A stretch of DNA of 64,000 nucleotides, taken from positions 61,804,012 through 61,868,011 of the forward strand of contig OY997590.1 of assembly GCA_963921825.1 (NCBI GenBank), in the 5' to 3' direction. The stretch comes from Erodium maritimum (Eukaryota; Streptophyta; Magnoliopsida; Geraniales; Geraniaceae). This document shows positions 10,141 to 47,370 of this stretch, piece after piece; within the stretch, counting starts at the first letter, position 1, and each line of letters starts with the position of its first letter. The position numbers were made by a program, and so were the translations under genes. The notes beneath the pieces are model-generated. The model made no database searches. It was not told the origin of the DNA and saw only the letters and a list, made by a program, of their open reading frames with translations.

Positions 10141-12541
10141 GAGCTCTCCCCAAAAACCTATGTCGCCGTGCCTATAGCCAGCAAGAGGCCGGTAATGCAT
10201 GTCGTTTTTCCTACCGGTGGTTCTCTTTTCCCCCTCCCGTGCCCCTACCAACCCGCCGTTGCTGCGAAATTTGGGAAGGTGGAGCATCGCCGATGGAAGC
10301 CAAAGCCGACCCTCCAAGCTACAATCTCTCCGCCTCTGGGACAGATCTCAGAGGAGGTCTCCTCCGCCGTGGGGTCAGCATCTCATATCCGGACGGCTAA
10401 ACCGAAACGGGGGAGGACTCAACGTCGACCAACGATGCCTTCTTCTCCAAGTAAGGGCCTTCTTGTCCTACTGCCTCTAAACCCTAGCATGCCGCCTTGC
10501 TCGGCAAGCCGTGATCTTGCTTTGGTTCCCTTGATCCCAAGAGGGGTGCCTTGCCCTGCAAGTCATGCTACCGCTCCGACTATCACGAACCCTAACAAGC
10601 CGGCTTGCCATGTAAGCCGTGATCCCACTCTGGTTCCCTTGAACCCTAGAGTGTTGGCGTGCCTTGCGAGTACCATTACGCTGGACTCCTCAATCCCTAG
10701 CATCCCGCTCCTCCTTGTGTGCCATGACCTTGCTCGGGCACCGCTGCCTGGCAGCGGGGCTCCTAGGGTTTCAGCGTCGACTGATGTTACCTCAACTCTT
10801 CTTAGGGTTGAAGGTCCTCTTGGTCGTGCACACGTTCCTAAGATAACTTGGGACTAGGTTCGCATCCCCACGGATGAGGCTCCAGGTGCTAACCCTAGTG
10901 CGCTTCCCCCGCTGCAGAGGGATCTGGTGAAAGGGAAGGCCCCTATGGAGGAGCTACCAAGGATGACATTATTGGCCTTAGGATTAGGGCGCTTCCTCCC
11001 TAATCAAATCTCGACACCAACTATCCCTGCGGCCCTAACTACCCCACCGGGTATGATGCGGGGTAGGTCTCGACACCTGGCTACGACTGAGTTTCCCTCA
11101 TCCTCGACTAACAGGATGACAGACCTTCAATCATCCTTGGAAGGTCTGCAGGATGAGTTAACATCTTGTTCCTTGGAGGAAGAGGAAGCAATCGAGGTCA
11201 TGGTCCCAACGTCTCGGGCGACGGCATCGGCGACCCTTGCTCGCCAACAATGGGGTCTGCTGGGACGTCTTTGGGCCCATAAGCCTCCATGGAAGCCTCC
11301 ATGGAAAGACATGCTCCTGCAGATCATCACAAATGCATGGGGAAAGTCTGCAGAAGGCTTGATGGTTAAAGATCTAGGGCCGGGCTTGTTCGGCTTCTAT
11401 TTCCAGTCCTTTGAGTCTTGGTCATGGGTTCGAAGCAATGAACCCTGGTGCTTTGATGGAAAGGTCTTATTGTTAGGAGATTTAGACCCGTGTGCTCGAG
11501 AGCTGCCTCTTTTGGACCGGGTGCAGCTTTAGGTACATGCTAGAGGCTGCCACCTCTGGTTCAGAAAAGGGAGATAGGTATCTCCATTGGCAACACATTG
11601 GGAATGTGCGTGAATCTCCCATGTGACCAATGGGGGATGTGCCGGGGAGGAACTGTCAAAATCCGCTTCTAGCACCTCCTTGGAAAGCCACTATGGAAAG
11701 GACTAGTGCTTAGGATCCTAGAGTTTCCGAACCCAATCCATGTGGAACTCACGTATACGAAGCTTCAAACCTTATATTATAATTGTGGTCGTCTCAGCGA
11801 TATTTTGAAGGATTGTACGTTGGCGGTTAGGCCCCTCGAGGTTCGAGGAATTCATGCTGGAGTACCACCGAGAGAAGACAGTCAAGGCGTATGCCACAGA
11901 TTGGGGAGAACTGGTCTGTCTGCCTTGCCCGTCAGGTTTTGGCCCTCAGGGTCCTTTGGACCTGGATAAGGGACCTCGGCCCCTTATGCCCCCTCGTTCA
12001 AGACATCAGGGCTCGGCCAGTGGGGCGCTGCTTCGACCTTCTGCCCCTCCGGCATTGGAGGATCCATTACTACGCCTGGACCATCTGGTTGGGAGGGCTC
12101 GGGCGGGTTTGGGAGCTCAGGAGGATGGTGTCCCTGGAGAAGCTGGTGTTGGGGACAACCAGAACACACTGAAACGGTCAGCAGCTAGGGTCCTTAGGGA
12201 GGAATAGTTCAGGGCGGGAAAACAACCCCACCAAGAGGAATGAGTGGTACGCCGTGCATCAGGGACTGGACCTGGGAGAGGTCCCTGTACGATATGCTGC
12301 CTCCCCCTTCACTATTACCGTTGAGGTCCCTCAGGATCTCCGGTCTCCAATTCCTCCTCTCCGTCTTCTGTCATGGCCTATGATTCATCAAAATACCGCT
12401 TACGTCAGTTCTAATATAAAAACGTCTAGAGAACCGTTTTTCAACTATTTTGACCTTTCTCTCGTGGTCGGGGAAAATATTCCTCGGTGCGCACCTATGT
12501 AATCTCTTGAAATCAATAATATTGCACCCTTCGTTAAAAAA
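10141..12541 (+). mobile_element. LINE-type unit carrying ORF1 only
   Basis: Starts directly at the copia LTR edge, so its true 5' end may be missing. It holds an interrupted ORF1 with a DUF4283-type core and ends in a LINE-like 3' terminus, AATAATATTGCACCC followed by TTCGTTAAAAAAAA, at about 12508-12541. No reverse transcriptase or endonuclease sequence lies between the ORF1 and the tail. It is tail-to-tail with the minus-strand unit beginning near 12650. A target-site duplication was not found. Confidence 0.65.
10168..12207 (+). pseudogene. LINE ORF1-like protein (DUF4283 with degenerate zinc knuckle)
   Basis: One frame runs from 10168 to 11532 with a single in-frame stop at 10855-10857. 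The first part is Pro/Ser-rich with repeated short blocks containing LVPLNPR. The core at about 11365-11520 has GLFGFYF, WVRSNEPWCF and LLLGDLD, the DUF4283 pattern of plant L1 ORF1. Beyond 11532 the frame shifts, and a degenerate knuckle (YYNCGRLSDILKDC) follows near 11785-11820. The minus-strand relative at 13281-14045 has the same core and an intact CCHC, which supports the assignment. ORF1 proteins of this type bind the element's RNA. This copy is not functional. Confidence 0.7.
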
Positions 12542-12649
12542 AACAAGTTTAATCTTGTGTCGCTGAATTCAACCAAATAAATGTATCTCAATTTAATTAA
12601 TTAAAAATTATCAAAACATCCAAACTGATTGATTTTAAAAAAAAATAAG

Positions 12650-14690
12650 TTGTAGCTTTCATTAATATAAACTGAAACTCACTACAGTAGCCATGTTACT
12701 CAAGAGGGAGAGGATCCAATAAGTCTCAAAGACAAATTAATCCAAAATAGACTCAATTATGACAAACATTATAGTGCAGGGAAAGTAACTAAAATAAGAA
12801 ATAAAACCAATACTAAAGAAGAAAAGCAAATCCAAAGGTGTCCATTGCTCGGAACAGCTCAAGGTGGGGTGGAAACGCTGTTTGATCCCTACTTTCCAAG
12901 GACTCGTCTCGTCGACCCAACGACCGATTGAACCACCGAACTTGAACCAAGTAATAAGGCGGCAAGGAACAACTCTCCCCAGGGACCCCTCCCGGAGTCG
13001 GTCCCTAGAGCCATGAGTTCTTCTCATTTCTCCTGGCGAGGCTGTTTTCAAGCCCTCGACTGATCTTCTAGTGGCTCCCCCGTTGTGTCCCTCTTCTGGC
13101 TACTCGGCCCCTACTGCAAACACCCAGGACAGCCTGACGTAGACGATTGGCCGACGACCCAGGTGGATGGCTCCTTTCCTAATCGAAACTGAGCTCGTAA
13201 ACCCGGATAAAGTATCGGGTCAACGATCGTATGGGGTGTCTTCTCCCGTGCCAATCCGGTTCTTGGTATTGGATCCAGGGTCAGCGAGGCAAACCTGGTG
13301 GTGGTGGTAGTGGACGCATCTCTTTTCCCCAATCGGTCTCGTAGGGTCGATCTACTTTGGCGGTCTTGAATTCCAAAAGGGAGTCCCCGTAACGAGGAAC
13401 TCTCGGGATCTCCCACTCGCAATCGCTAACCATGTGGCCAATTCTGGCACAATTGAAACAGAAAGTAGGGAGCTTAGCATACGTGAGGGTGACACGTACA
13501 GGCTCCGGGTAGTCTCGGAAGCTCATAGTCATTGTACGGTGGAGTGGTATCTTCACGTCAATCCAGAACCGAACTTTCACAGTTCTGCCCCACTGATCAC
13601 ACGGGGTATCTACATGTTCTCCTAGGGCTACTCCGATCGCCTCCCTGGTGGCCTTTGTACGGACAAGAGGTGGGATACCCCGAGCAAAGACCCTTAGCTG
13701 GTACTTGTCCAACCGAGGGAGGTTCCTAGACATGGGATCCAAGATCTCCCCGAGAAGCAGCAGATGGCCATGGAAGCACCATGGTTCACTCTGGCGGACC
13801 CAAGTCCTATCCGCCGATGAACGAAAGTAAAAAAACAGAGTGTCCGGTTCGAGATCCTTGACGACCCCCCTGTCGTAGCGCAACCTCAAGCCCGAGTGAT
13901 GACCTCCAACATAAGTTCCTTCCGCATTAGAGTCGGAGCGGCTAGACGGCCTACCAAGCCAAATTGAAGGTGAGCTAGGGTTTGTGGATCCGATGGGTTG
14001 TAGGGCACCACCACCACGACCGCGTCCTCCTATGTAATCCAGCACGCCGAGAACCCCTCCTGAAGATCCCCTATAATGGAGGGGTGAGTAGGATGGGTTG
14101 AGAACCCTTCATGCATGGTAGATGGGTTGGAAGCTAGGACCTGTCTCAGATCAGTCCCTGTGGCGCCTGAAGCCGGAGGAGACGAGGCCCGCGTAGGGAA
14201 GGATTGTGGCGCTCCAGCAGGAAGTTAAGATATTGAGGGCTCAACCTTACCCGTTGCACTCCTGGCAGGAGAAACTTTGGGAAGGGTAGCTTCGGGATCG
14301 CCAAGAACAGACCAGAGGGAGGCTGCGCCTTGGTTGGCCTTCCTCGCTTCGGCCTAGGGTTTCTTAGAAGCGATGTCGTGGCTCCAGGCTCGAACACCAC
14401 CAGTGATTTCTCCTCGAGGCGGGGGGGGGGGGGATACGACTTCTGGAACAGAAGAGGACGATGGTGACGAGGTTTCTTCTTTTTCTTTTCCCGGATAGGC
14501 TTGACAAAACCATTAGGGGGCTGGGGCATAACAAGAGGAGAGGGAGGAGGATCACTTAGGGATGGTGACCCCTCAACAACAGGCGAGACTGACAGCAAAG
14601 CCGTCATGATCGCAAAAAGTACAAGCATCATAAAAAATCTTGGACAGAAAGACAAATTTCTCAGTAAGTTTTTTTCCAAACTATTTTTTT
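12650..14690 (-). mobile_element. LINE-type unit carrying ORF1 only, minus strand
   Basis: On the minus strand a proline-rich N-terminal frame (14679-14146) leads into a DUF4283/CCHC frame (14045-13281), then ~600 bp of non-coding sequence ending near ATTAATGAAAGCTACAAC at about 12650-12670. No reverse transcriptase is present. Boundaries are approximate and no target-site duplication was seen. A 14-base G run at 14420-14433 is a likely sequencing weak spot. Confidence 0.6.
13281..14679 (-). pseudogene. LINE ORF1-like protein (DUF4283 plus CCHC zinc knuckle)
   Basis: The N-terminal frame (177 residues) is Pro-rich with a basic KKKKKPRHHR stretch. The C-terminal frame (254 residues) lies in a different phase, so at least one frameshift separates them. 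The C-terminal part has DTLFFYFRSS, WVRQSEPWCFHGHLLLL and WIDVKIPL, followed by an intact CCHC knuckle CFNCARIGHMVSDC. These are the DUF4283 and zf-CCHC_4 modules of plant L1 ORF1. It is closely related in design to the + strand unit at 10168-12207 but clearly diverged from it, so they are separate insertions rather than one recent inverted duplication. Confidence 0.72.
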
Positions 14691-14699
14691 TTGAGGTAA

Positions 14700-15195: not shown

Positions 15196-15203
15196 TATAA
15201 AAA
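15196..15203 (+). promoter_or_regulatory. TATA box of the polygalacturonase gene
   Basis: TATAAAAA lies 163 bp upstream of the start codon, a plausible distance for a TATA box plus a ~130 nt leader. No other TATA-like motif is nearer. Confidence 0.5.
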
Positions 15204-15365
15204 AGGCGAAAAAGGAAAAAGGGTACGCATTCGCAATTTGAGCCCAAAAGCAAGGGCAGTTTCGGAACACGAAGCCATATATTAAACTGTCTATAACTAC
15301 CTGAGAGTCATTCCCCTGTTCCAAAACAGAGTGCCGTCTTATTTCTTCTCCAAAAAAGTTTAGAA

Positions 15366-22187: not shown

Positions 22188-24960
22188 TGTAAGAACCGCC
22201 CCCGGTCGAACCGGTGATTTTTGGCGAAAGTTTACTTTCCGCCGAAAAAGTCAACCAATGACTCCGGGAGCCATTCAGGACCTTTCCGGGACCCAAAAAG
22301 CCTAGTCGTCATTACGATTATCTTAGTTGGGTCGTTTCCTTTCAAATGGCTGTCGTTGCGAAAAAGTCAAACTCGGGTCAAATTAAGAGTAATTAACGAC
22401 TAAACCCAATTAAATTAATAGTGTTGGAAATCATTAAGCACAAGGTGGTCCCCACATGGACACTTGTCCATGGTGGGTTAGAGGAGAAGAAATGGGTGTA
22501 CAATGACCCATTTGCCCCCATAAGTGCCGAAATAGAAGAAAGAGGAAGGGAGGGCCTTTTGGTCAATTCAACCTTAGGTTTAAGACCATTTTTAGAGAGC
22601 AATTCAGCCCTTTTACACCACTGTAGTCGAAATTCCACAAAGAGAGAGAGAGAGAGAGAGGAAAAGCTTCTTAGCTTGAAGAAGAAGAAAGGGAGGAAAA
22701 GAGGAAGGTTGGAGCAAGTTCTTCACCAAATCTTCTCAAAAACCTCACAATCTTCATCATCTCTTCATCCCCAAGGTAAGTAAGCTCTAACAATCTACTT
22801 TCAATTAAGTCGGGATTATGGGTTTCCATAGAACTTGCATGAACTAGGTGGGTTTTGGTGTATTTGTTGTTAGATGGTTGTTTTGATGAAGATTAGTGAA
22901 TGTTTTGGTTAGAATTCATTTGATTGTTGATGTTTGGAGGAAACCCATTATGGGTATTGAAGTTTGAGAGTTTTGGTGACTGATTTTGGGGTTTGATGAT
23001 GTTAGAAATGGATTTTTTGAAGTAGATTTTCGTGGAAACGAAATTGGGGAAGAAGGAGTTTGGGTCTGCCCAGATTTTGCACGAAAAGGGCCTCTGACCG
23101 GCCCTCTGATTGGCGCGGTCCGGGTCCCAGACCGGCCCTCTGAGGGGCACGGAACAGGCCTGGTGCCGGGCCTCTAAGGGGCACCGTCCGGGCAGGGTGC
23201 TGGATTTGTGGGCTGCCCGAATTGGGCCTTGTTCGGGCCCAATTTACCTTTTGGCCCAAGTTTTATTATTAGGGGTAATTTATGTATTTCTCTTTAAAAC
23301 CGACCTTGATTGTTTATTAATTCGAGTATTAATTTATGATCCTAGACTTTATTCTCGAGCTCGGAGGAGGAGACTACTAAACGTTCGCGTGACTAAGCGT
23401 TTGGAAAGCACTTGAGGTAGGGAAGAGTAGTAATTATCGCTTTTAATTAAAGAATGTTAATAGTATGCATATAGGATGTTAATAACCGGTAAAGTCTTAG
23501 TTTGCATATAGGATGTGATTAACTAGAATAACCGCTTTCAATTATGGGAATTGACGTGATGTAGGATCACATGTGGCCATGTCGGGCCTTAGGATTGTGT
23601 GTTGGTTGTGTTTGATTGTGGTTAATCGTCCTAAAATGTCGATGTATAGTATACTCTTTGGTTAATTTAAGAATCATATTATGCTATATGAATTGTGATG
23701 AATGTGATATGAATGTTTGTTTCCTGACATGATTGGTTGAATGAATGTAATGAATGTGATATGAATGTTATCTTGTGATATGATCAGGTGAATGATACAC
23801 TGATACGTTGTTCTTGGTAAGGTGTGACGATAGGCTTCGTTGGTATGATAAGTTCGGTGTAGTGTGGTATTGTGTGGTGTGACTTGTACCCCGAGAGACG
23901 GGAAGATACCTGACCGAGGTGTGTGCCGATCCGATATGTGTGCGATGAGATTTACCCCGATGTGCGTTCCGGGAAGACATCTAGGGCACCGATGTGTGTT
24001 TCCGGTATGATGTATTGTTTGCTTACCCCGATGCTGTGTGTCTGGGAAGACATCTAGACCGATGGGTATTCCGGTATGATGTATTGTTTGCTTACCCCGA
24101 TGATGTGTGTCCGGGAAGACATCTAGACCGATGGGTATTCCGGTATGATGTGTTGTTTCACCCCGATGCTGTGTGTCCGGGAGGACATCTAGACCGATGG
24201 GTATTCCGAAATGATGTGTGTTTCACCCTGATGTTGTGTGTCCGGGAAGACATCTAGACCGATGGTTTATTCCGGTATGATGTATTGCTTCACCCCGATG
24301 CTGTGTGTCTGGGAAGACATCTAGACCGAGGGTGTATTCCGATATGATGTATTTGTTGAGTTGTGCGTGGTGATCGGAGTATCACAGTGTACGTGTCTTA
24401 TGTCTGCATGATATCTGGTTTGAGTGACGTTCGTAGTGGTCTTAATATTATAATGTTCTGTTATTCGAATGGTTCTTTAGCTTGGCCCTATTATCGATCA
24501 TGTTGTGTTCCTGTTGGTTTCGGTTTGTGTTGTCAATCATTGGTAAGAGTTATTGAGATCGGGTATTTTGGTAATGGAGTGGAAGTCCATTTTCTTTACT
24601 ACTTTTTCCTACTGAGCGAAAGCTCACCCCCTCTGTTTTTACTGTTTCACAGAATTCGCTGGTGAGTCGGTTTAAAGGATGTCTCAGAGCTCGGGAGCTC
24701 ATCGAGAATCCGGGGGTTTATCTTTGAGTAGAGACGTACTTTCTGTTATGAACTAAATAGTGTTTTTACTTATTTGTATTTGAGCGTGTGACTCAGGTTT
24801 ATCAGAGTATTTTATTTTGGAATCGAAATCCGAGTTTATGTTGTTTAAATCTACTAATATCTCGTTTAACTTACTTTTACTTTTAAACTTATTATTGTTT
24901 CTTTTACTTTACTTTAGTTCACGTCTCGAGTCCTGTCAACACCGGATTTGGGGCGTGACA
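22188..24960 (+). repeat. gypsy left LTR (2773 bp)
   Basis: It contains a (GA)n tract near 22637-22660, a strong donor-like CAAG|GTAAGT at 22775, degenerate ~58 bp tandem repeats at about 23985-24350, and the palindrome GAGCGAAAGCTC at 24614-24625 ahead of a pyrimidine tract and AG (24651-24652). Confidence 0.92.
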
Positions 24961-26271: not shown

Positions 26272-27161
26272 TGCCTACTGCCACTACAGCCGCCACCGTG
26301 AGACCTAGCCAGGTTGACAGCTACACAGCTCAGGCGCTGAGAGACTTTCGCAGGATGGGCACACCTGTCTTTTCCGGGGAGCCAGACCCCGAGGCAGCCT
26401 AGAGATGGCTGGAGCGGATTACCCGCAACTTGGATACGTCGGGGATCCTGGACCGCCACTTGAGGGTATCCTTTGCAGCATTCCTGCTAGAGGGCGATGC
26501 ATACCGTTGGTGGCATCGCAAGGAGGTTCGAGTTGGAAATGATTTTCAGCTGTTCAGGGAGCGGTTCCTGGAGCAGTATTTTCCGCGGTCAGCCTGGGAG
26601 GACAGGCATCAGCAGTTCCTGGAACTGCGACAAGAGGGGATGACAGTCTCGGAGTACGAGGCGAGATTCACCTCCTTGTCCCGCTTTGCACCGGAGATGG
26701 TGCCGACCGAGTCTCACCGCTGTAAACGGTTCGAGGGAGGGCTTCACCCCACGATTGTGGATCGGGTCACAGCACTGAGGACCCAGGTGCATTTGGAACT
26801 AGTGGATCAGGCACTGGCCGTGAAGCGACACTTTCGAGAGACAGCCAGGGTTCGAGAGAGCAGGCCGAGACCGAGTGGCTTCCTGAGGCTGTCTGAGGGC
26901 CGCGATCCGAGGAGGCAGAGGACCTCAGGATCGTTCCGGCCACATGCCCAGTCTAGTGGGATGCGACAGGTCGGAGTAGTGGCGTCCGTTGGACCTGTCC
27001 CGCTAGAGCGGTTTTGCCCCCTGTGTAGGCAGTTGGGCCATCTGGCCCGATATTGTCTGAGGAGCGGTGGACCTGCAGCTCGCCCAGCGGGTCGTCTAGC
27101 GAGGTTCACGGAGAGGCCGCGTGACGATGAGAGGACATGCTACCAGTGCGGTCGACTTTAA
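26272..27161 (+). pseudogene. gypsy gag remnant (Retrotrans_gag plus zinc knuckle)
   Basis: The longest open part runs 26430-27161 (243 residues). It has the Retrotrans_gag pattern: AYRWWHRKE, FLEQYFP, LRQEGMTVSEYEARFTSLS and RFEGGL. A CCHC knuckle CPLCRQLGHLARYC follows, then the start of a second cysteine box at 27138 (CYQCGRL). Gag forms the particle that packages element RNA. Upstream sequence from about 26272 continues the same protein. It is a fossil. Confidence 0.88.
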
Positions 27162-30026: not shown

Positions 30027-32766
30027 TGTAAGAACCGCCCTCGTTCGATCCCGGTCGAACCGGTGATTTTTGGCGAAAGTTTACTTTCCACCGGAAAAGT
30101 CAACCGATGACTCTAGGAGCCATTCGAGACCTTTCCGATACCCAAAAATCTAGCCGTCGTTATGGTTAGCTTAGTTGGGTCGTTTCCTTTCAAGTGATTG
30201 TCTTTGCGATAAAGTCAAACTCGGGTCAAACTAAGAGTAATTAACGACTAAACCCAATTAAATTAATAGTGCTGGAAATCATTAAGGACAAGCTGGTCCC
30301 CACATGGACACTTGTCCATGGTGGGTTGGAGTAAAAGAAATGGGTCTACAATGACTCATTTGCCCCCATAAGTGCCAAAATAGAAGAAAGAGCAAGGGAG
30401 GACCTTTTGGTCAATTCAACCTTAGGCTTAAGACCACTTTTTGAGAGCAATTCAGCCCTTTTACATCATTGCAGCCGAAATTCCACAAAGGGAGAGAGAG
30501 AGGAAAAGCTTTTAGCTTGAGGAAGAAGAAAGGGAGGAAAAGAGGAAGCTTGGAGCAAGTTCTTCACCAAATCTTCGCAAAAACCTCACAATCTTCATCA
30601 TTTCTTCATCCCTAAGGTAAGTAAGCTCTAACAATCTACTTTCAATTCAGCTGGGATTATGAGTTTCCATAGAAGTTGCATGAACTAGGTGGGTTTGGTG
30701 TATTTGTTGTTAGATGGTTGTTTTGATGAAGATTAGTGAATGTTTTGGTTAGAATTCATTTGATTGTTGATATTTAGGGGAAACCCATTATGGGTATTGA
30801 AGTTTGAGAGTTTTGGTGACTGATATTGGGGTTTGATGATGTTAGATATGGAGTTTTTGAAGTAGATTTTCGTGAAAACGAAGTTGGGGAAGAAGGAGTT
30901 TGGGTTTGCCAAGATTTGGCACGGAAAGGGCCTCTGACCGGCCCTCTGAGTGGTGCGGTCCGGGTCCCAGACCGGCCCTCTGAGGGGCATGGTCCGGGCC
31001 GGGTGCTGGATTTGTGGGCTGCCCGAATTGGGCCTTGTTCGGGCCCAATTTACCTTTTGGCCCAAGTTTTATCGTTAGGGGTAATTTAGGTATATCTCTT
31101 TAAAACCGACCTTGATTGTTTATTAATTCGAGTATTAATTTATGATCCTAGACTTTATTCTCGAGCTCGGAGGAGGAGACTACTAAACGTTCGTGTGACT
31201 AAGCGTTTGGAAAGCACTTGAGGTAGGGAAGAGTATTAATTACCGCTTTTAATTAAAGAATGTTAACAGTATGCATATAGGACGTTAATAACCGGTAAAG
31301 TCTTAGTTTTCATATAGGATGTGATTAACTAGAATACCAGCTTTCAATTATGGGAATTTTCGTGTTGTAGGATCACATGTGGCCATGTCGGGCCTTAGGA
31401 TTGTGTGTTGGTTGTGTTTGATTGTGGTTAATCGTCCTAAAATGTCGATGTATAGTATATTCATTGGTTAATTTAAGAATCATATTATACTATATGAATT
31501 ATGATGAATGTGACATGAATCTTTGTTTCGTGACATGATTGGTTGAATGAATGTGATATGAATGTTATCTTGTGATATGATCGGGTGAATGATAGACCGA
31601 TACGGTGTTTTTGGTAAGTTGTGACGATAGGCTTCGTTGGTATGATAAGTTTGGTGTAGTGTTTTTTGTGTGGTATTGTGTGGTGTGACTTGTACGCCGA
31701 GCGACGGGAAGATACCCGACCGAGGTGTGTGCCGGTCCGGTATGTGTGCGATGAGATTTACCCCAATGTGCGTTCCGGGAAGACATCTAGGGCGCCGATG
31801 TGTGTTTACGGTATGATGTATTGTTTGCTTACCCCGATGTTATGTGTCCGGGAAGACATCTAGACCGATGGGTATTCCGGTATGATGTATTGTTTGCTTA
31901 CCCCGATGCTGTGTGTCTGAGAAGACATCTAGACCGATGGGTATTCCGGTATGATGTGTTGTTTCATCCCGATGATGTGTGTCTGGGAGGACATCTAGAC
32001 CGATGGGTATTCCGATATGATGTGTGTTTCACCCTGATGTTGTGTGTTCGTGAAGACATCTAGACCGATGGTGTATTCCGGTATGATGTATTGCTTCACC
32101 CCGAGCTGTGTGTCCGGGAAGACATCTAGATCGAGGGTGTATTCCGGTATGATGTATTTGTTGAGTTGTGCATGGTGATCGGAGTATCACGGTGTACGTG
32201 TCTTATGTCTGCATGATATCTAGTTTGAGTGACGTTCGTAGTGGTCTTAATATTATAATGTTCTGTTATTCGAATGGTTCTTTAGCTTGGCCCTATTATC
32301 GATCATGTTGTGTTCCTGTTGGTTTCGGTTTGTGTTGTCAATCATTGGTAAGAGTTATTGAGATCGGGTATTTTGGTAATGGAGTGGAAGTCCATTTTCT
32401 TTACTACTTTTTCCTACTGAGCGAAAGCTCACCCTCTCTGTTTTTACTGTTTCACAGGTTTCGCTGGTTAGTCAGTTTAAAGGACGTCTCAGAGCTCAGG
32501 AGCTCATCGAGAGTCTGGGGGTTTATCTTTGAGTAGAGACGTACTTTCTGTTATGAACTAAACTGTGTTTTTTACTTATTTGTATTTGAGCGTGTGACTC
32601 AGGTTTATCAGAGTATTTTATTTTGGAATCGAATTCGAAGTTTCTGTTGGTTAAATCTACTTTTATCTCGTTTAACTAACTTTTACTTTTAAATTTATTA
32701 TTGTTTCTTTTACTTTACTTTAGTTCACGTCTCGAGTCCGGTCAACTCCGGATTTGGGGCGTGACA
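30027..32766 (+). repeat. gypsy right LTR (2740 bp)
   Basis: Same architecture as the left LTR: donor-like TAAG|GTAAGT at 30616, tandem repeats at about 31790-32155, palindrome at 32419-32430, acceptor-like AG at 32456-32457. It is preceded by the polypurine tract. Confidence 0.92.
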
Positions 32767-37110: not shown

Positions 37111-38533
37111 TTTGAGACGCCTAACTTTTTCTACCGCTTCGTAGTTTAAATTTCGATCGGTCATCTTGTACTAGTCCTCGCTGGTAGAGGGCATCGATCC
37201 AATGCTTCGAGCTCTGTTCCACTGTCAGGTGGCTCCGGCGAGCTTTGTAATCAGATGTAGAGCCTGCAGGTACAACTAGAGTCATCAGAAAGGTGGGGGG
37301 GGGGGGGGTCCGGGGGGCAGACCAAAGTATTCCTTTGGTTCGATCGTTTCCATCTCTGTGCGTGCTAGACCAAATCGATGAGGACGCTTTTTCGGATTTG
37401 TTGAGTTCAACTCTCCAGATGCAGCCTTGCAGGTTATCCAAAGTTTAAATGGTTTTAAATTTAATGGATATGTGCTATATTGCCTTAGCACGCCCAACAA
37501 AAGTCAGAAACTCGACAAAGAAACTGAGCATCACAGCTTTAGCTGGGAAAGTGAAGGGTTCGGTTTCTCATGCTGTTGAGGAGAGTTCATCGACTGAGAT
37601 TCGTAAGTTCCCTGTCGTTTGGCTTCCGAATGCTGATCAGAACTGGGTGGAAAAGTCTCTGTCACCGGTTCAATCATCACCGGAGCTGGAGTTTATCAGT
37701 CCACCAGAGCTGGACATCGGGGGAGCATCGGTTCCGCAACTCGCACTAAATGAGATTCAAATTTCAGAGAATCATATTCCTGATTTGGAGGATTTTCTTG
37801 ATCAGTCTCGAGGTATCGTCAATCCCGTGATTTTGGCTCAGGAATTTCCAGCTGAAAATTTGGATCCTACGATTGTGTGTGATGAGTACAACAACGAGGT
37901 GAATCGCGTTGGGGAAGAAGTAATTGCACACGTTAGTGGGCCTGTGCAACATATTGGGCCGATGGTTGGGCTTGGACAACCTGTACTGTTTTTAAACCCA
38001 AACTCCAACACCACCCTTCTACATTAGTAGGCCTGGTCAAGTCAGCTTTGTCGATCAGCGTCAGGTTGCGGTTTCGAAGGAGGTGGGTAGCCCGTGGAAG
38101 GATATCCTTCTCAAAGCTCCGAAACGACAGAGCCGGCCTCCAAAATTTTTAGAGGATTATTATACTGATAAATCTAAGCCTCGAGCTCGTTCTTTGAGTC
38201 GTGAGAGACTTGTCGCTCCTGTTGTTGTTTGGAAGCAGGCTGCACAAGCTCGTAACACTCAATTAGCTCAATTTCACTAAGCAAAGGCTTTTGACGATCC
38301 GAATTTGACCTCGGAAGATGATGAGTGGGTCACTGACGAGGGTTGATCGGTTCGATCGTGTTTCTTTGTTTCGGTTTTGTTTAGTGGCCGGTTTGTTTTT
38401 TGTTATTTGGTTTGCTCTTTTCTCGGGGTTTGTTCCCACAGCTCCAGCTGAGAGTTCCTTTGTTATGGTTTCGTTCTGGATTGATCCTATTTGGATTTTC
38501 TTTTTCAATAAAATTTTATGAGCTTATCCAAAA
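37111..38533 (+). mobile_element. LINE-type unit with ORF1 C-terminus and 3' tail
   Basis: An open frame at 37449-38027 (192 residues, acidic, Pro/Ser-rich) continues in another phase to about 38280 (VGSPWKDILLKAP, then an Arg/Ser-rich end). It is followed by T-rich 3' sequence and a LINE terminus, CAATAAAATTTTATGAGC then TTATCCAAAAAAAA, at about 38506-38533. The acidic tail plus T-rich 3' UTR is what ends plant L1 ORF1-type units; no RT is present. The 5' limit is unclear, and 37120-37440 (with a 14-G run at 37295-37308) is unassigned. Confidence 0.5.
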
Positions 38534-39550: not shown

Positions 39551-39553
39551 CAG

Positions 39554-40550
39554 TTTTTTTTTAAACGAGTAATCGGGGAAGTGTATTAGTGCAAGAAATA
39601 AACCATGCAAGGTGGGGCGTGCAAGCCCTGAGTTCCAGATATGTGTCCTGGTCGTCTGTAGGCAACCCATCGATCATGGGCCCGTAGAAAAATACTGCTT
39701 CTGCTCGCAGATACTAACTTAGGACATCCCCTTACCGACATCTCAAAATTCCGAAACTGAAAAATAAACATCCAACATACTAACAAAGCAAAATAGTCCA
39801 AACTCGAAACATAAAACTCATAAAGTAGACAGGAGTAAAGTGCTCTGAATGCGGTTTTTCCGAGACCTCCCAGCACCGGTAGTCTCGGGTCTGTGGGTAT
39901 AGTCTGTGATCGGACCCTTCCACCCTTGCCGGGTCTCCTCATTCCTCCGAAGGAGGCTGTGACGCCTCCGTCTGTGCATCCTGGACCTCCTCCTCGTCCC
40001 TCAACTTATGGACTTGTAGGATAAGATCTGTACTCTCGACCTCGTCTTCCCAGTCTAGGACCAGCTGCTTTTCCCCTGTTGTTGTTCCGGACTGGGATGG
40101 AGACGCCCCTCGTGGATTTGCCACGGCCAGCTCCGAGCAGATCTACTGAATCTCCCACGTGCTAAGAGGACGCGAGGTTGTCCTTACCGACTCAACATGG
40201 GGCAGTCGTAGGGTCGGTCAGGCCAAGGATTGAGGTCGCTCATGCGGGAGAGGCTGCAGCTCGACTTGCATGTCTTCCGGTGAGATTACCCCCGACGTGG
40301 TGTGAGCGCGAGGGGTATTGGACGATGGAGTGGCCCCCGATATCGCTGGATCCGAGAGGAAAACCATCGGGGAAAAGTTCATGTCTGACAGGAATGTGGG
40401 GGAGGGTTAAAGCGGGGATGGAACAACAATATTTGGCGATAGGGTAGTCAGGATCCATGGCGGCGACGGAGAAAAAGGTAGAAGGAGAGCAGAGATGGAG
40501 GAACGGGACGACAGCTTTCTCAGCTCTAGAAAACTCGTGAGAGAGTACTT
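39554..40550 (-). mobile_element. short LINE-type retroposon, minus strand
   Basis: On the minus strand it ends TACACTTCCCCGATTACTCG then TTTAAAAAAAAA (39554-39570), a common plant L1 3' end with its poly(A) tail. It starts near 40550 with a leader, then a short frame (40458-40240, MDPDYPIAKYCCS) and a second (40124-39939, acidic, EEEVQDAQTEASQPPSEE) in other phases. The acidic segment resembles the ORF1 linker. No RT. It is only ~1 kb, so it is internally deleted or non-autonomous. Weak similarity of the flanks (AACTTAAAG-like) could be a degenerate target duplication. Confidence 0.55.
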
Positions 40551-40559
40551 TTTAAGTTT

Positions 40560-40950: not shown

Positions 40951-40959
40951 CAATTTTTG

Positions 40960-43090
40960 GAATCATTGGCTTCAGGGTTTTGAAGATTAGCATCAGTTTG
41001 CTTCAGATTGTTTTGGCAAAACAATTTGCGTGGAATTGTAAGGTGTGCGTTCAGAACTGTTTTCCTAGATTTGTGTTTTGCTGTTTTCGTTCCTTGTTAG
41101 GCCAAATTCTCGTGGAATCGTGAAGAGGATCTTTACCAGTTTGCTACATGTGCACTCAGAAGCTTAGGATTGGTTTTTACTGGTCACCGGCTAGAAAACT
41201 CAAGAGCGACGGTTCCTTTTCAGGCGTTTTTGTGCTTGGGCAGCTTTGGCTTGAGTTTTTTGTTGTTCGTCCGTGCTCTAGAGGGTTGAGGTCTTTAATG
41301 ACTGCTTCTTCTTCATCGTTCGGTCCACTGCCTGGTTTCAAAGGAGTTAACCTATGTTTTCTACCGATCGATCCAATGAGAATTCTGAGCGTATCAAACT
41401 TTTTGTTTGTCATTTACCTTACCAATCAACGGTTGATTGGCTTTTCAACCTTTTCAATCTACATGGAAAGGTGTTTAAGGCGGATGCAATTCGAAAGCCT
41501 AACCGTGGAGGTCTCTACTTCATTTTTATATGGGTACGTGATGTTGATGTTGATGTCATGATATCAAATATCCATGGTAGCTCGGTTCAGGGTGTGTGTT
41601 GTTGGTTGATTGAGCTTGGGAGAGAGGCAAGTCTAGTACCTTCTCTGGCAAGGTGTGGAAGAGGAAATTGAACCATGCGTCGGATGCAGCTGTGTTCCCC
41701 CAGGAAACTCCCTTTAGGTTTAAAGGCTCAATTGTTCCTAAACGTTGCGATATGGTTTTGTCAGGGTGTTTAGTTGTATCTCGTTCTTCTCGTAGCTTGG
41801 AAGCGATTCAGGAAGAGATTGAGAGAGAAGGGGTTATGGATTTAAAGTTTCGTTCTTTTGGAAACAAGGTGTTTCTTATTACATGTTTAGACCCGGGCTT
41901 TGAAGCAACGATGAAGGAAACAAAGTGGCGTTGGCTGGAGAGGTGGTTCATGATATCAATCTGTTCAGGGGATCTGGTGCTTAGGAGTGACTTTTTTCAG
42001 TGGGTGGTTGTTGATGGTATTCCTTTCCATGGTTGGAGCATCGAGAATCTCTTATCCATTAGAAAGCTTTTCGGTCCAGTCCTTTCGATTCATGGAGAGG
42101 AACTTGGGGCTTCTTCTGGTCGAACCTTTGTCTTGGTTCAGAGTGATAAAGTTTTGAGGGGCGAGGTGGTAGAGTTGGTCCTTAGTGAAACTGTTTTCGA
42201 GTCTTTATTTGAGACATTGATGAGAGTAGGGTCCCTAATACTCTGAGATCGGAAGATTTGGTCGGTGATCTTGTCCACTCTGGCGTTGTTTTTGAGTTTG
42301 ATTCAGATGACGATGTTGCAGGATCGACCTCCTTTACTGGTGCAAGTTCTAGGGAAGGTGATGATCCGTCAAAAACATCACTGTCTACTCTTGAGTTTTT
42401 AGATTCCGTCGACCCTGACGAGTTCTCTGTCCCTCTGACAATTCATCAGTGTGTGACGGCACCGGGTGTAGTGGTATATGACCCTCGCCCCTCTCCCTCT
42501 ATTGGTAATACGTATATTGAGGATGATTTCTTTGTTGAGGTCGGGGTCAAAAGAAGAAGAGGAGACCTAGAGGTCAAGGGAAGAAGAAGGCCTCAGCAAA
42601 GGTTTTTTTTATTAAGTTTAGCATCAAGGATAGAAGCAGGGTGGTTTCGATCGTTTTGGAAGGTAAGGTGGTCCATCATCCTTGGACTCTTGCTCGGCCA
42701 TGGGGTTTTCTCCCATGAGCAAGTCTTTGAGTTCTGAGGTTGGGGTTCAAGCTGAAACCAGTTTACTTTGTGACGGTCCAGACTTGGTTTGATTGTTGAG
42801 GCTGGACTCGTTTTTTTAGTTTTTGCTTTTTGTGGTGGTCTGGGTTGTTTATCTTTGGTTTTGTAGGGTTGTTGTGTTGTTAGGGTCGTGCTTTTTTGTT
42901 TTTGATTTTTACGGTGTTTTCGTGTTTTTCTGTTTTGGTTGGTTCCTCCGTGTGGGAGGTGGTTGCTTTTGTGAGAGTTAGCTCTTTTGAGTTTTGATCT
43001 GGTATTGAGGATGAGACCCTTTATTGGGTGCCTCTCTTTGCCTCGTCATTCTATCTTTGAAGTACATGTGCTTGATAAAATTTCGCCTAT
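40960..43090 (+). mobile_element. LINE-type unit with RRM and DUF4283 ORF1, no RT
   Basis: A T/G-rich leader, a broken ORF1 (41354-42737), ~350 bp of T-rich 3' UTR and a typical plant L1 terminus (TGATAAAATTTCGCCTATC then AAAAAA, at about 43075-43098) in that order. ORF2 (endonuclease-RT) is absent although both ORF1 and the 3' end are present. A target duplication was not found. It ends about 360 bp from the NRT2.5 stop codon. Confidence 0.75.
41354..42737 (+). pseudogene. LINE ORF1: RRM followed by DUF4283
   Basis: The first frame (41354-41671) has an RRM: IKLFVCHLPYQSTVDWLFNLF (RNP2-like), FNLHGKVFKADAIRKPN, GLYFIFIWV (RNP1-like) and ISNIHGSSVQG. A phase change near 41650 leads into 41653-42246 with a DUF4283 core: LSGCLVVSRSSRSLEAIQEE, FGNKVFLITC and WVVVDGIPFHGWSIENLLSI. 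Another phase change near 42235 leads into an acidic tail (FEFDSDDDVAGSTSF, to 42737). RRM-DUF4283 is the standard ORF1 layout of one class of plant L1 elements, which bind element RNA. Two frameshifts disable it. Confidence 0.82.
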
Positions 43091-43459
43091 CAAAAAATAA
43101 ACTAATCCCAATTTTTAGGTTTAATAAACATCAAGCTTTGAAATTGTTTGAATCCACTTTGTTGCCTCTTTCGATAAGTGGGGGATTAGATTTCTAACAA
43201 AAATCAATGCTCTATAGAGCTCCATCATACGGATCTAATTTTAACACACTGTTACGGGTAATATGCCTTTTGAAACTTGAAAAAAAAAACAGTGGCATTC
43301 ATTTGAAGACTGTAGAGATGAAGTTGCTGTTATTACACAGAGAAGTTGAAATGTTGACAATCCACTACAGTACAGCTACAAAGATATAGAAAAGTAGCAA
43401 CTTTATCAACATGAAAATACAGACACACGATATTCTGCTTGCCAACTTGTGGTTTATGT

Positions 43460-45071
43460 TCAAACATGGTGTGTTTGTGGGGGGCTGTCGTCGGAGGGCA
43501 TTGTTCCGGCATCCCCTCTTCTGCCTCTTTCGCGTACGCTGTTGGAAGCGAATTTCAAACTTGCCTCATGGAACCCCTTTTCCTTCTCCTTAGAGCTCCA
43601 TTCTGACATGTAGTAGTCCTCTTCAGTTGAGGTCTTCCCTGACGATGGCCCCAAAAACATCCCTCCCCATTGAGGGAAGTGTATGAGACATATCGGGAGG
43701 GTGCAACAAATGATCATGATACCCATCAGTGTTATGCCCGTTTCTTTCGAGTACTTTGATCCTTTGAAAAATATCAGCTGTGTCACCACCGCACCCACAT
43801 TCCCTCCTCCTCCCGTCATGCCAGAGATTACTCCCAACGACCTTAAAAATAACACAAAATCAATCACAATGAACAAACGATTAAAAGCTCAAGCTGATAG
43901 TTAAAGTTCCAATTATAACTATATTCTAACAGTACCTTCTTGAGACGAAGGGAACGACCCCAAATGTGAGGCCGCACGCAGCTTGGACGAAGAAGGAGAA
44001 AGCGATCATGACTACAATAGATGCGCCTAAAGATCCGACCTGGCCGAGAACCACACATAGAACCCCTCCCAGGGTCTGCACCGCCCACAAGGTCCACAGC
44101 CTACCTCTCATCCCGAACCTCTTAGCCACAACATCCGAGATTATACCTCCCGCGGGCCGAGAAACCAAGTTGGCCAATCCAAAGCTCGCCGCTATGATCC
44201 CCGCAGTGTGGAGTTTGAGGTCGAATCTGTCGTAAAAGTACTCCGCAATGATGTTGTCTATCGTCAGCTCCACCCCGAAACAGTACCCGTAAGTCAACGC
44301 CAGGATCCACCCCCTGTAGTTGGTGACCCCGTGTTGGAAAACCCGCGAGAAACTATCTTTGGGCTTGTCCCCGGACTTGTGCAGGCCGTGGAAGTTGCCG
44401 TCGGGCATGTCTTGGCCGAAGATGAGGATGGCGAATGCAGATAGCATCTGGAACAGGGCGGGGATGAAGAATGCTATCCTCCACGCCGTGAACTTGACGG
44501 CGCCGACGTCACGGATGACGCCGAACACAAGTGGCATGATGAGTTGGGTCGCCCCGCCGCCTAGGTTCCCCCACCCGCCGGCGACGCCGTTGGCGGTCCC
44601 CACCACGGGGGCGGAGAACATGGAGCTCATCCAGAATTGGGTGGACACGAAAGTGGCCAGAGAGAAACCTGTGAAGAAGCGCACCAGGAGAAAGGAGATG
44701 GGCGAAGAAGCCATTGCGGTGAGGTAAACGGCGGGTGCGGTGACGAGGATGAGCAAGGCGGAGGCGAGGCGCGGCCCGAACAGGTCGCAGGCCGTGCCCA
44801 TGGCTACCCTGGCGAAGACGGCGCCGCACACCGACGCGACGCCGGCGTTGCCGATGTCCGTGGCCGTCAGGTTGAGGTTGTCTCGTATGATGGGAAGGAG
44901 CGGCGGCGCGGCGAAGGTGGACACGAAGCATGCAAAGAACGACACCCACGACAGATGAAACGACCGCATGTGAGGTGCCGCTGCTGAGAACAACCTGAAC
45001 TCGGTAGCTTTGTGCTCCGAATCCACCGGGAGAGCGAACTTCGGCGGCTCCGACTGACCTGACACCTCCAT
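43460..45071 (-). CDS. NRT2.5: high-affinity nitrate transporter NRT2.5-like, two exons, 505 aa
   Basis: Exon 1 is 45071-43936 and exon 2 is 43841-43460; the single intron is 94 bp, GT/AG, phase 2, joining FVSRR to [17 protein letters not shown]. The start MEVSGQ (45071) was preferred over an upstream in-frame ATG (45104) because the family begins here. It is an MFS protein of the nitrate/nitrite porter family. Segments seen include [20 protein letters not shown] (about 39-58) and [10 protein letters not shown] (95-104). The nitrate signatures are [13 protein letters not shown] (about 164-176) and [15 protein letters not shown] (about 385-399). SRRSLGV and [13 protein letters not shown] resemble Arabidopsis NRT2.5 (502 aa, from memory) more than NRT2.1. 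Family knowledge: a plasma-membrane proton/nitrate symporter that needs NAR2/NRT3 and is induced by nitrogen starvation. It appears intact; the inferred subtype is fairly secure. Confidence 0.95.
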
Positions 45072-45140
45072 ATCGATCTCTACTGTATGAAACTCTATCA
45101 ACACCGGAGCTTAATATAATTGTGATGAACTAGTGTGAGC

Positions 45141-45150
45141 TTATATATAT
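45141..45150 (-). promoter_or_regulatory. TATA box of the NRT2.5-like gene
   Basis: The minus strand reads ATATATATAA about 70-80 nt upstream of the start codon, giving a short leader of around 40 nt. Confidence 0.55.
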
Positions 45151-45151
45151 A

Positions 45152-45733
45152 GTGTATAGTGATGTGGTTATGCACAAGTGGTATTCATTTTGTATTGTGC
45201 CTTTCTTTTGGACACAAACTTACCAATTCTGCAAAAGTGGGAAGAATAAAAGGGCTTTGTGCATGTGTTGGGTAGTGGCAGGTGACTTAGTGAGGGTACA
45301 AAGTAGCTGTTCTTGGCTTCGCGAGTGCACTAGGAAGCTGTGACTCGGAGGATTGTGTTACTGACTCGTGGCCCTTTGCGGTTGAGAAGGCAAGTCGTAG
45401 GCCGCATAAGTCTTCGTTTCCGCCAAGTCTTGCTGCCGCGAGACATAAGAGAATCGACGGACTTTGAATTCTGAGGCGTGAAAGGGAGCTTTTGTCAAGG
45501 CTTGATTTTTAATGGCTGGTGGGATGAATCCTTGGGTTAAGGAAAGTGACCTTCAGATGCAACTTGCGTTCGGATACCACTCACGAAACTGAGGGAACAG
45601 CGTTGCAGTGCGACTTGGTAAGAGATTCTTTGAATATTCATTGTCTCATGAACTAAAAGTCTATTTTGCCACTTATCTCATTTTCACACTTATTACATGG
45701 GCGTTTATAAAGACAATAATAGTTCAGCCTATT
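45152..45733. promoter_or_regulatory. upstream region of the NRT2.5-like gene, no named element
   Basis: About 580 bp without a gene, bounded by the LINE insertion at 45750. It must hold the proximal promoter; no specific motif is claimed. Confidence 0.35.
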
Positions 45734-45749
45734 AAATGAGGTTGACATT
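45734..45749 (+). repeat. left target-site duplication of the LINE-type unit
   Basis: AAATGAGGTTGACATT. The first A residues could belong to the tail on the other side, so the sure core is TGAGGTTGACATT. Confidence 0.85.
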
Positions 45750-47370
45750 ATGTTATAATTTTTCGGACTCTCGCTTTCTCTCCCTAGTGGTGAGTTATTT
45801 AGGGTTCTGCGAGAAATTATGGTCATGGTCATTGTTATCGATGAAACATCCTCTTTTCCTTGCTCCTACTTCCTTCCTCAGTTTCGGTCGGACCCTTAAC
45901 ACGCAGAATCTTCATCTTATCCGCCTTTGTGGCCCATCACCCAAACGCCATCATCACTCCTTGGTCCCCGTCAGTCGTCGTAGTCAACATGCAATCGAAA
46001 AATATTCATTTCTAACACATGCAAATCAACATCCACGCTTTCAACGTGTCGGTGGATGCAAGAAAATGCTAGATCCAGGTACTACTGGGCAACACATTGG
46101 GTCTAGAGGTTACTACGGCCTCGTGCTCGCATCAAAGGGGATGGAAAAAATTCCTTTGTGTTAGGGTCCAACTATACATGGATCGGTCACTCAATCGTCA
46201 GGCTCGGTTGGCATTTCCACGTTATCTCAAGCCTGTTCGAATTCGCCTCCAATATGAGCGACTCTAGAAGTTCTGCGACTGGTGTGGTCATCTCACTCAA
46301 AGAACCCGGGATTTCCAAGCCTCGTTTTCGGGTGTCGAGAGGGAAGAGACCTGACTTGACACGTTGATGCAGAATCCAATGTGGTTGGATACGAAAGGTC
46401 TGTTATGGATGGACAGGGGTGCTTCCACGGAACATAGGAGGACGAGACATGATGAGATGCCATTGAGGATGGTGCAGACGGAGCCGAACCTACCGACCAT
46501 GCTGTAACGCTATCGTATCTCGTGTCCACCGTTGTGTTTCCCGGTTCGGGAGGTACTCAACAATGGTGATTGTTCGCCAAATATTTGTGATGTGGCTAAG
46601 GAGTTTATCGGGGAGAAGCCTCCAAGTGGGGGATGGGCGCACAAAGATTTATTACCTGACTAATATGGTATGGGAGGGTCAGTGGTCTGTGGAAGGGGGA
46701 CAACATCTGCCTTTTTCTTTGTATCCTACTATCTTGGTGAAGACTCGCATCTATCCTCCCGCTCTGCCACTCGCTCCGAAAGAAGTACAACGATCAAGAG
46801 TGAAGAAGGTTAGGATGCAAAAGGAACCTTAGACACATACCTCGGGGTTGGGATCTAATAAATTTAAGGGTTGGAAAGGTAGGGGCATGGAAAAGGTCCA
46901 TGCCCAGAAGAACTGTCTGAAGCGGGAATTGGAGTTGTCGGGATCACCTCTGACCCAAGTGACCCAAGAGAATATTGGAGGGTACCCCACCAGGCGAGAG
47001 CTGCCAAGTAGCCCTGCCAGGAGCCATGAGGCCTTAAATGGGAGGTGCGACAAGAGGATGGAGTACTGTCCCACATCATCTCGAGCCGACGACTCGGTCT
47101 CCCTCCATCAGGCGAATGGTTGGGTTTTTTGTTCTCTGATTACTGTTTTTGTTATGTTACCTACAATATATGTACAATACAAACTAGATTAGTTCAACGG
47201 GTTCAGAGCGTCGATAAGCCTGTTTCGTGTGTGTGTGTGTGGGGTGGGTGGGGGGTTTCGGACTTTAGTTTAGAACCCAAGGTTTTGGTCCTCCTCCTCC
47301 TCTACATGGATTGGTAATGACATTGTTTAGAATTCTATAACAAAATCTGAACCGCCGCGTTTCAAAAAGA
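45750..47370 (+). mobile_element. complete RT-less LINE-type insertion with 16 bp target duplication
   Basis: AAATGAGGTTGACATT occurs at 45734-45749 and again at 47371-47386, directly after the tail (ACCGCCGCGTTTCAAAAAGA, about 47351-47370). That makes this 1.6 kb unit a delimited target-primed insertion. Inside are diverged ORF1 pieces: KPVRIRLQYER then FCDWCGHLTQRTRDF, a degenerate zf-CCHC_4 knuckle (about 46215-46325), and a Gly/Lys-rich C-terminal stretch (about 46850-47110). No RT or endonuclease is present. It lies in the upstream region of the NRT2.5-like gene, about 600 bp from its TATA box. Confidence 0.8.

Follow-up and report, generated by a model that had tools for sequence, protein, structure and literature searches.

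At least units A, B, C and E, and probably also unit F, are likely plant half-LINEs for which complete L1s would supply ORF2; together with a sixth unit, D, they lie in the window, the 64,000-nt stretch of Erodium maritimum DNA analysed here. Judged from their sequences, such plant half-LINEs would be elements of ~1.4–2.5 kb in which an ORF1 for an RNA-binding protein of L1 type is followed by a short 3′UTR and poly(A), and which have no ORF2.

All six units were present in the window at the coordinates claimed for them (Table 1). The initial annotation had described each as ORF1-type sequence without endonuclease-RT. The first half of this description held for A, B, C, E and F, that is, five of the six, and failed for D, which gave no ORF1 signal. 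The second half was borne out for all of them, as a Pfam profile search of each unit (three forward frames, stops as X, E ≤ 1) found neither endonuclease nor RT, and likewise no zf-RVT or RVT_3, so that none of the units carries inside the element the endonuclease and RT of an autonomous plant L1. The domains reported were DUF4283, zinc knuckle or RRM_1, and PF02994 was not among the Pfam matches. The ORF1s of the window copies themselves are broken. A single family comprising all six units was ruled out by unit-versus-unit BLASTN, in which one weak 77-nt match between A and B was the only hit.

Table 1. Positions of the units and their features in the window
Feature	Position	Strand	Basis and remarks
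Unit A, likely half-LINE of an abundant family	10141..12541	+	Genome copies, majority frame, spacing
DUF4283 stretch, unit A ORF1	11320..11544	+	E=0.0037, below curated cut-off (decayed window copy)
Zinc-knuckle remnant, unit A ORF1, another frame	11742..11816	+	zf-CCHC_4 E=0.13
Unit B, likely half-LINE	12650..14690	-	Genome copies, majority frame; family start near 14666
Zinc knuckle, unit B ORF1	13416..13505	-	zf-CCHC_4 E=4.1e-6; 28.5 bits, cut-off 27
DUF4283 stretch, unit B ORF1	13605..13862	-	E=4.4e-5; 26.0 bits, cut-off 27.2
Unit C, likely half-LINE with RRM-type ORF1	37111..38533	+	Pfam, genome copies
RRM_1 stretch, unit C ORF1	37331..37477	+	E=2.2e-8, 34.3 bits vs cut-off 20.7
Constant 3′ module, family C	38062..38533	+	C-terminal ~95 codons of ORF1 (stop near 38346) and 3′UTR
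Unit D, member of a poly(A) retroposon family, ~1 kb	39554..40550	-	Genome copies; no ORF1 domain
Unit E, likely half-LINE	40960..43090	+	Genome copies; ~47 nt missing at this copy's 5′ end
RRM-like stretch, unit E	41390..41530	+	Resembles RRM of family C copy L074: 47%/47 aa, E=6.6e-9
Weak DUF4283 match, unit E	42001..42099	+	E=0.009; second scan 20.9 bits, E=3.1e-4, below cut-off
5′ copy of exact 16-bp target duplication of F	45734..45749	.	AAATGAGGTTGACATT
Unit F, probable half-LINE with broken ORF1, low-copy family	45750..47370	+	Pfam, ORF1 similarity, genome relatives
Zinc knuckle, unit F	46238..46312	+	zf-CCHC_4 E=4.3e-4, 20.3 bits, below cut-off 27
3′ copy of exact 16-bp target duplication of F	47371..47386	.	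AAATGAGGTTGACATT

Many copies of one layout, with ORF1 and without ORF2, were found for A, B and E when the genome (763 Mb) was searched with the units, and C showed this layout in a modular form. The search that had been proposed, for many copies with a common ORF1-to-3′-end junction, therefore succeeded for A, B and E (spacing was measured for A only) and, for C, in the modular form only. An ORF1 that stays coding despite the absence of ORF2 was observed in family A and in the module of C.

Elements of family A are ~2.45 kb long, with a 3′UTR of ~300 nt and poly(A). Among 40 candidates scored, 19 other genomic places cover at least 91% (at least 2,200 nt) of unit A in one collinear piece. 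Copy number rises from 5′ to 3′, as 24-mers searched with up to three mismatches occurred at 58 (5′), 156 (mid-ORF1) and 333 (3′) places, and the reversed control of each of the three probes occurred at none. Spacing was taken from all 58 5′ places, 100 listed of the 156 mid-ORF1 places and 100 listed of the 333 3′ places: the distance from mid-ORF1 to the 3′ end was within 10% of the expected 914 in 24 of 31 listed cases and compatible with an intervening ORF2 in none of these 31, and the 5′-to-3′ distance was within 10% of 2209 in 17 of 21. The window copy lacks the first ~50 nt of the family. The majority sequence, built from 19 of 30 loci and the window copy (L021, which is the window copy, L033 and L042–L050 being left out), has an ORF1 of 706 codons from stop to stop, or ~702 from its first in-frame ATG. 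In copy L034, Pfam reported DUF4283 at 45.5 bits (cut-off 27.2), zf-CCHC_4 at 24.9 bits (cut-off 27) and zf-CCHC at 22.4 bits (cut-off 20.8). Two subfamilies, A and A2, are both RT-less and have the same 3′ end; between them, dN/dS of ORF1 was 0.25 (0.16–0.37), or 0.18 (0.09–0.31) without the unlike 5′ part, and single A copies compared with their own majority gave 0.58. ORF1 of family A is under purifying selection between subfamilies.

For B, 17 other places cover at least 93% (at least 1,900 of 2,041 nt) in one collinear piece, and for E, 17 cover at least 75% (at least 1,600 nt) in the same manner, with 40 candidates scored for each. The majority ORF1 of B consists of 292 and 197 codons in one frame, separated by a single in-frame stop, and that of E has 546 codons from stop to stop; the RRM-like stretch of E was not reported by Pfam. 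Family C, among half-LINEs with an RRM-type ORF1, has a ~470-bp 3′ module in common, with diverged ORF1 fronts. The fronts have a mean identity of 45%, compared with 36–37% for shuffled fronts, which refutes similarity at chance level. In the C-terminal module, dN/dS was 0.37, and dN was below dS in 27 of 28 pairs. Of the family C sequences, nine in all, six were scanned for RRM (L072, L075 and L076 lay outside the scan); L069, one of these six, gave no RRM match in Pfam.

Unit F resembles an L1 ORF1 with 25% identity over 100 aa (E=1e-5) and has just four long relatives genome-wide, at 66–68% DNA identity. RT sequence within the units, named beforehand as evidence against the half-LINE layout, did not appear: neither RT nor endonuclease was found downstream of these relatives (L002, L003, L004 and L005), just as none was found in the units. 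The perfect 16-bp target duplication reported around F proved exact, with AAATGAGGTTGACATT identical on both sides.

Insertion hallmarks accompany the dispersed copies. Poly(A) of at least five residues was found at 25 of 30 loci of A, 7 of 8 of B, 6 of 6 of E and 2 of 2 of D, that is, at 40 of 46 loci, one of which (L021) is the window copy. Copies were expected to have target duplications of their own, and 10 of 51 copies reached significance (P<0.02, with mismatched pairs as control; ~1 expected). The remaining 41 did not, and none of the five window copies of A–E has a significant duplication. The test used family-specific 5′ windows that were chosen after viewing the flanks, with identical windows in the control; they replaced a narrower 5′ window, which had overlooked cases in family A.

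L1s with zf-RVT occur in this genome, and RVT_3 together with zf-RVT was found in all four that were scanned. From the better-scoring zf-RVT places among 150 listed of 12,901 first-look candidates, a biased sample, we took 18 L1 3′ ends, nine of which have an A run of at least six within 20 nt after ORF2. One ORF1 (L093) sits 4.7 kb upstream of a zf-RVT (L064) on the same strand, the two presumably forming one complete L1, and it matches B at 2e-19, A at 3e-17 and F at 8e-5. A search for a full L1 with the 3′ end of a unit had been proposed, and none was detected, as 0 of the 18 L1 3′ ends matched any unit by BLASTN. When terminal ~30-mers of the units were compared with 16 of the 18 L1 ends (in at least two of which, L055 and L063, the cut fell at an A run beyond the true end), shuffles were beaten for E only, for which 0 of 300 shuffles were as good; the corresponding counts were 16 for A, 13 for D, 67 for F, 155 for C and 254 for B. 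The "LINE 3′ end" attributed to the units thus stands as poly(A), and its likeness to real L1 3′ ends goes beyond shuffles for E alone.

For unit D alone, we lean slightly towards an element of another kind, a non-coding retroposon comparable to Sadhu, with no ORF1 carried. Sadhu elements of Arabidopsis are described as non-coding, with ~900 bp, poly(A), target duplications of 7–16 bp and LINE-compatible target sites (PMC2848041). D is near to them in size and form, with a length of about 1 kb, poly(A) in both fetched copies, a target duplication in copy L092 (P=0.01), with L091 likely to have one as well (P=0.03). No Pfam domain was found in any forward frame of D and no match to any ORF1 compared in this genome; outside its own copies, D matches only a stretch adjoining the F relative L005, which has no Pfam domain either. 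The longest forward frame in the majority of three copies is just 139 codons. Against this reading, the same majority has a 203-codon frame on the opposite strand, only three near-full-length copies were read, the likeness to Sadhu is known by description and not by sequence, and D may be a fast-evolving ORF1 tail without RNA-binding domains. In one copy (C2:7911437-7915400), the 5′ part (1–297) and the 3′ part (293–997) are separated by 2.98 kb, which could point to a parent longer than D or to another insertion nested in this copy. A simple internal deletion as the origin of D is weakened, since 12 of 17 other matches to the 5′ part continue unbroken across the 293–297 point.

The families could also be processed pseudogenes, derived from a host gene family that goes back to a captured L1 ORF1 and whose mRNAs were retroposed by L1, so that the copies would be dead and would not spread by themselves. 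We consider this improbable. Poly(A), some target duplications and the near-equal divergence of A copies from their majority (7–11%) agree with it, the purifying selection between A subfamilies would equally fit a gene family, and retroposition of poly(A) mRNAs is attributed to plant L1s (PMC3747384). However, the 3′ end of one family is common to hundreds of places and several families exist; full-length A copies begin jointly, only ~50 nt upstream of the majority's first in-frame ATG; and the split A matches among those listed break at differing points and not at shared intron positions, no split position being common to the scored places. Independent internal deletions, by which every unit would go back to its own L1 whose ORF2 was lost on insertion or later, are very improbable: the separated parts of the D copy would suit them, but A, B and E show one layout at many places, with junctions that recur and are not one-off, the 293–297 point of D is mostly crossed unbroken, and the unit 3′ ends are resembled by none of the sampled L1 ends in BLASTN.

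The half-LINE reading remains preferred for A, B, C, E and probably F. Points that speak against it are the 41 copies lacking a target duplication, the lack of a BLASTN match to the 18 sampled L1 3′ ends, the lack of an ORF1 signal in D, the few and distant relatives of F and the broken ORF1s in the window. Of the proposal that these are non-autonomous LINE families mobilised in trans, the missing ORF2, the dispersed copies and the insertion hallmarks are observed; from the missing ORF2 and the hallmarks we infer, rather than observe, that ORF2 is supplied in trans. In the proposed cycle, a half-LINE would be transcribed, and its ORF1 protein would coat mainly the element's own RNA in cis, as the purifying selection acting on this frame suggests. 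Complete poly(A)-ending L1s of this genome would then provide the endonuclease/RT, which would engage the half-LINE RNA at the poly(A) end, nick the target and copy the RNA in by target-primed reverse transcription; target duplications and frequent 5′ truncation would result.

The layout is, as had been noted, that of mammalian HAL1, with ORF1 present, ORF2 absent, poly(A) and some target duplications. The HAL1 lineage derives from a mammalian L1 with a coiled-coil/RRM/CTD ORF1 (Pfam PF02994). Unlike it, the units here have no PF02994-type ORF1 and carry plant ORF1 types (DUF4283 with zinc knuckle, or RRM_1), spread over several separate families; among these, one group has a common 3′ module. 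Plant L1-clade LINEs, which include the RRM-bearing BNR type, are alike in ORF1 domains and poly(A) end, and such L1s occur in this genome, whereas the units are without endonuclease, RT, zf-RVT and RVT_3. HAL1 elements are described as having ORF1 only, poly(A) and target duplications, as needing the RT/EN of complete LINEs and as having long kept ORF1 coding (PMC3627910, PMC5322556); the families here are alike in layout, poly(A), some target duplications and, for A and the module of C, an ORF1 that stayed coding, and for them the RT/EN dependence is inferred. Flowering-plant SINEs are described as non-autonomous, many with poly(A) and presumably moved by relaxed L1s (PMC3747384), whereas the families here encode a protein; Sadhu, likewise, is non-coding, whereas A, B, C and E encode ORF1.

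In mammals, half-LINEs whose ORF1 is still alive have been described. No description of a plant half-LINE was found in the open-licence literature searched, mostly at the level of listings. More tentatively, this plant may host a guild of coding LINE parasites, in which several ORF1-only lineages with two ORF1 types (RRM; DUF4283 and zinc knuckle) would have lost ORF2, with ORF1 kept by purifying selection for service to its own RNA in cis and constant 3′ modules joined to changing fronts, perhaps by template switching in the course of reverse transcription. If plants evolved half-LINEs several times, losing ORF2 while keeping ORF1 would be a recurrent way of life of L1s; recurrent half-LINEs would, if true, set apart what ORF1p does in cis from what ORF2p does in trans, and plant gene models with DUF4283 or zinc knuckle and no RT may partly be half-LINEs.

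The reading of the units as half-LINE families, advanced in the initial annotation, was upheld for units A, B, C and E. The whole genome (763,042,520 bases, 40 contigs) was searched with each unit and 40 candidates were scored per search (32 for F), so that place counts are lower bounds. Family A was found at no fewer than 19 places besides the window copy, each with a single collinear match over 2,200 or more of the 2,401 nt, at 78–85% identity; at least 17 places were obtained for family B (at least 1,900 of 2,041 nt covered, 79–86% identity) and at least 17 for family E (at least 1,600 of 2,131 nt, 72–84% identity). Among the 40 candidates scored for D, two places were near full length, seven began exactly at position 293 and others started from approximately 310–590. 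The 32 scored for F included four places of approximately 880–1,120 nt at 66–68% identity, the remaining matches being shorter, and no Pfam domain was detected downstream of these four long relatives. Unit F belongs to a scarce family and is a genuine insertion; its ORF1 is broken.

In Pfam scans of the six units, with three forward frames each and stops read as X, neither an endonuclease nor a reverse transcriptase was detected. In these read-through scans of the decayed window copies, DUF4283 or zinc-knuckle matches in A, B, E and F stayed below the cut-off, RRM_1 in C exceeded it, and unit D had no match in any of the three frames. Scanned without stop read-through, an ORF of unit B passed for zf-CCHC_4 (28.5 bits). 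Among sister copies, L034, a less decayed family A stretch, passed for DUF4283 at 45.5 bits and for zf-CCHC at 22.4 bits, and no domain was found in L089, the single family E stretch scanned. At the protein level, A and B share 48% identity over 187 aa, and the RRM-like segment of E matches family C. The description of all six units as ORF1-only and LINE-like holds for five; unit D, without a Pfam match, is a retroposon without a demonstrated ORF1.

Features of the window (C3:61804012-61868011), in window positions, and two arrangements elsewhere in the genome
Position	Strand	Feature	Remark
1-300 / 6756-7055		Identical 300-nt direct repeats	With the next feature, probably a young LTR element of copia type, truncated at the window edge
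5481-6269		gag_pre-integrs over cut-off, weak rve matches	
10141-12541	+	Unit A	
12650-14690	-	Unit B	
13281-14045		ORF of unit B	
22201-24960 / 30050-32766		Direct repeats spanning ~2.7 kb, mostly 90-98% alike, ~7.8 kb apart	With the next feature, probably a Ty3-type LTR element
26430-27161		Retrotrans_gag ORF accompanying these repeats	
37111-38533	+	Unit C	
39554-40550	-	Unit D	
40960-43090	+	Unit E	
43926-45104		MFS_1 transporter ORF, 392 aa, 82.3 bits, between units E and F	We take it to be perhaps a nitrate-transporter-like gene
45750-47370	+	Unit F	
48786-50408 / 59414-61532		Large inverted pair, 82-98% complementary	Tandem repeats, 37+48 bp in one arm and 48+59 bp in the other
C2:7911437-7915400		Two parts of unit D 2.98 kb apart, 5-nt overlap	Nested insertion (5-bp duplication) or, alternatively, a longer parent
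L005 (long F relative), ~376-1274 of reversed locus	-	D-like copy (72% over 447 nt, 3' part) directly upstream of the F relative	May be a chance neighbour or a D-F link

An alignment of 20 family A copies gave a majority sequence with a single open frame of 706 codons (positions 44–2161 of 2463), its first in-frame ATG lying at column 56, approximately 702 codons ahead of the stop; the copies diverged from it by 9% on average. Full-length copies have in common a start sequence that is missing from the window copy, their 5′ ends lying approximately 50 nt ahead of 10141. With up to three mismatches allowed, a pattern near the 5′ end matched 58 places, one in mid-ORF1 156 and one at the 3′ end 333; the reversed-pattern control of each matched none. 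These counts form a 5′-poor gradient, which is typical of LINE insertion. Among the matches listed, 24 of 31 mid-ORF1-to-3′ spacings were within 10% of 914 and seven departed further from it (649, 670, 744, 776, 2,516, 12,523 and 14,933); none of these 31 pairs showed an ORF2 of approximately 4 kb between the two marks. Likewise among the matches listed, 17 of 21 5′-to-3′ spacings were within 10% of 2,209; the others were 3,843, 5,754, 9,167 and 13,564, and in the last three the surplus length lay between the 5′ and mid marks, with none behind ORF1.

Target duplications were judged at P<0.02 against a control in which 5′ and 3′ flanks were taken from different copies. Such a direct repeat was found in 10 of 51 copies, about one being expected by chance: four of family A (L028, L035, L037 and L041), three of B (L077, L078 and L083, the A/T-rich L077 being doubtful), one each of E (L086) and D (L092), and the window copy of F. 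It was absent from the other 41, which fits, without being proof of, the approximately 9% decay of copies. A 3′-end run of at least five A was present at 25/30 A, 7/8 B, 6/6 E and 2/2 D loci.

In subfamily A2 (L042, L044, L046 and L049), the 5′ part is unlike that of A and the ORF1–3′UTR layout is the same. The dN/dS between A and A2 was 0.25 (bootstrap 0.16–0.37), or 0.18 (0.09–0.31) without the first 450 columns, and single copies compared with the A majority gave 0.58. Since A and A2 both lack ORF2 and share the same junction, the simplest reading of these sequences is that family A ORF1 was kept under selection once ORF2 was gone.

Among the 40 candidates scored for unit C, the matches at two places start at positions 524 and 536, another two places carry separate upstream matches in the RRM region (259–357), and most others match only the last ~470 nt. 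Mean identity among eight sequences was 86.5% over the last ~270 coding nt and 81% over the next 190 nt of 3′UTR, compared with 45% over the 860 nt ahead of this module (36–37% for shuffled fronts). Family C consists of distantly related fronts and a far more uniform 3′ module. By Pfam, RRM_1 was present in unit C and its relatives L070 (34.6 bits), L071 (45.5), L073 (45.6), these three passing the cut-off, and L074, and was not found in L069. In L073, the frame running from the RRM to the conserved C-terminus has 423 codons and is still open where the locus begins to be read; a stop, the 3′UTR and an A run follow its C-terminal end. The C-terminal ~85 residues of ORF1 (L069–L076) are strongly conserved behind the diverged fronts and gave no Pfam match over the cut-off in the sequences scanned; speculatively, they might be an ORF2p contact site. 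The C-terminal module had a dN/dS of 0.37, with dN < dS in 27 of 28 pairs. Such modularity could arise from strong constraint on the module, or from template switching or recombination; conservation of the UTR falls little short of that of the coding part, which leans towards exchange. Comparable 5′ boundaries occur in D (the seven matches from 293) and A2 (the unlike 5′ part).

Mammalian HAL1 elements, in the cited passages of PMC5322556, carry ORF1 alone and a poly(A) tail, lie between target duplications and rely on the RT/EN of LINEs, and guinea pig HAL1 kept a coding ORF1 for an estimated 29–44 Myr (PMC3627910, cited section). The plant elements are alike in layout but different in lineage: PF02994 is missing among their Pfam matches, which places them outside the mammalian HAL1 lineage. 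Sadhu, non-coding in the cited part of PMC2848041, resembles unit D alone among the six. Searches of an open-licence literature collection for half-LINEs and plant LINE ORF1 gave no plant half-LINE among the papers listed.

The LINE domains zf-RVT and DUF4283, from which a plant origin is deduced, are very abundant in the genome, with 12,901 and 12,439 first-look candidate places; the 150 scored of each were all above the cut-off. At 9 of 18 zf-RVT-bearing L1 places (L051–L068), an A run of at least six lay within 20 nt of the ORF2 end, leaving these L1s almost no 3′UTR; at the others, ORF2 was broken or no A run was directly next. RVT_3, the RNase H-like domain, accompanied zf-RVT at all four L1 places scanned. 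BLASTN of the 18 L1 ends against the units gave no match, and likeness beyond shuffles was confined to E, in its last ~25 nt. L093 holds an ORF1 homologous at the protein level to B, A and F. The zf-RVT near L064 follows it 4.7 kb downstream in the same orientation, and the two presumably belong to one complete L1. According to the cited passages of PMC3747384, flowering-plant L1s almost all end in poly(A), presumably with relaxed recognition of poly(A), so that movement in trans would need no common 3′ sequence. We infer that the half-LINEs moved in trans and that their ORF1 may have a role in cis.
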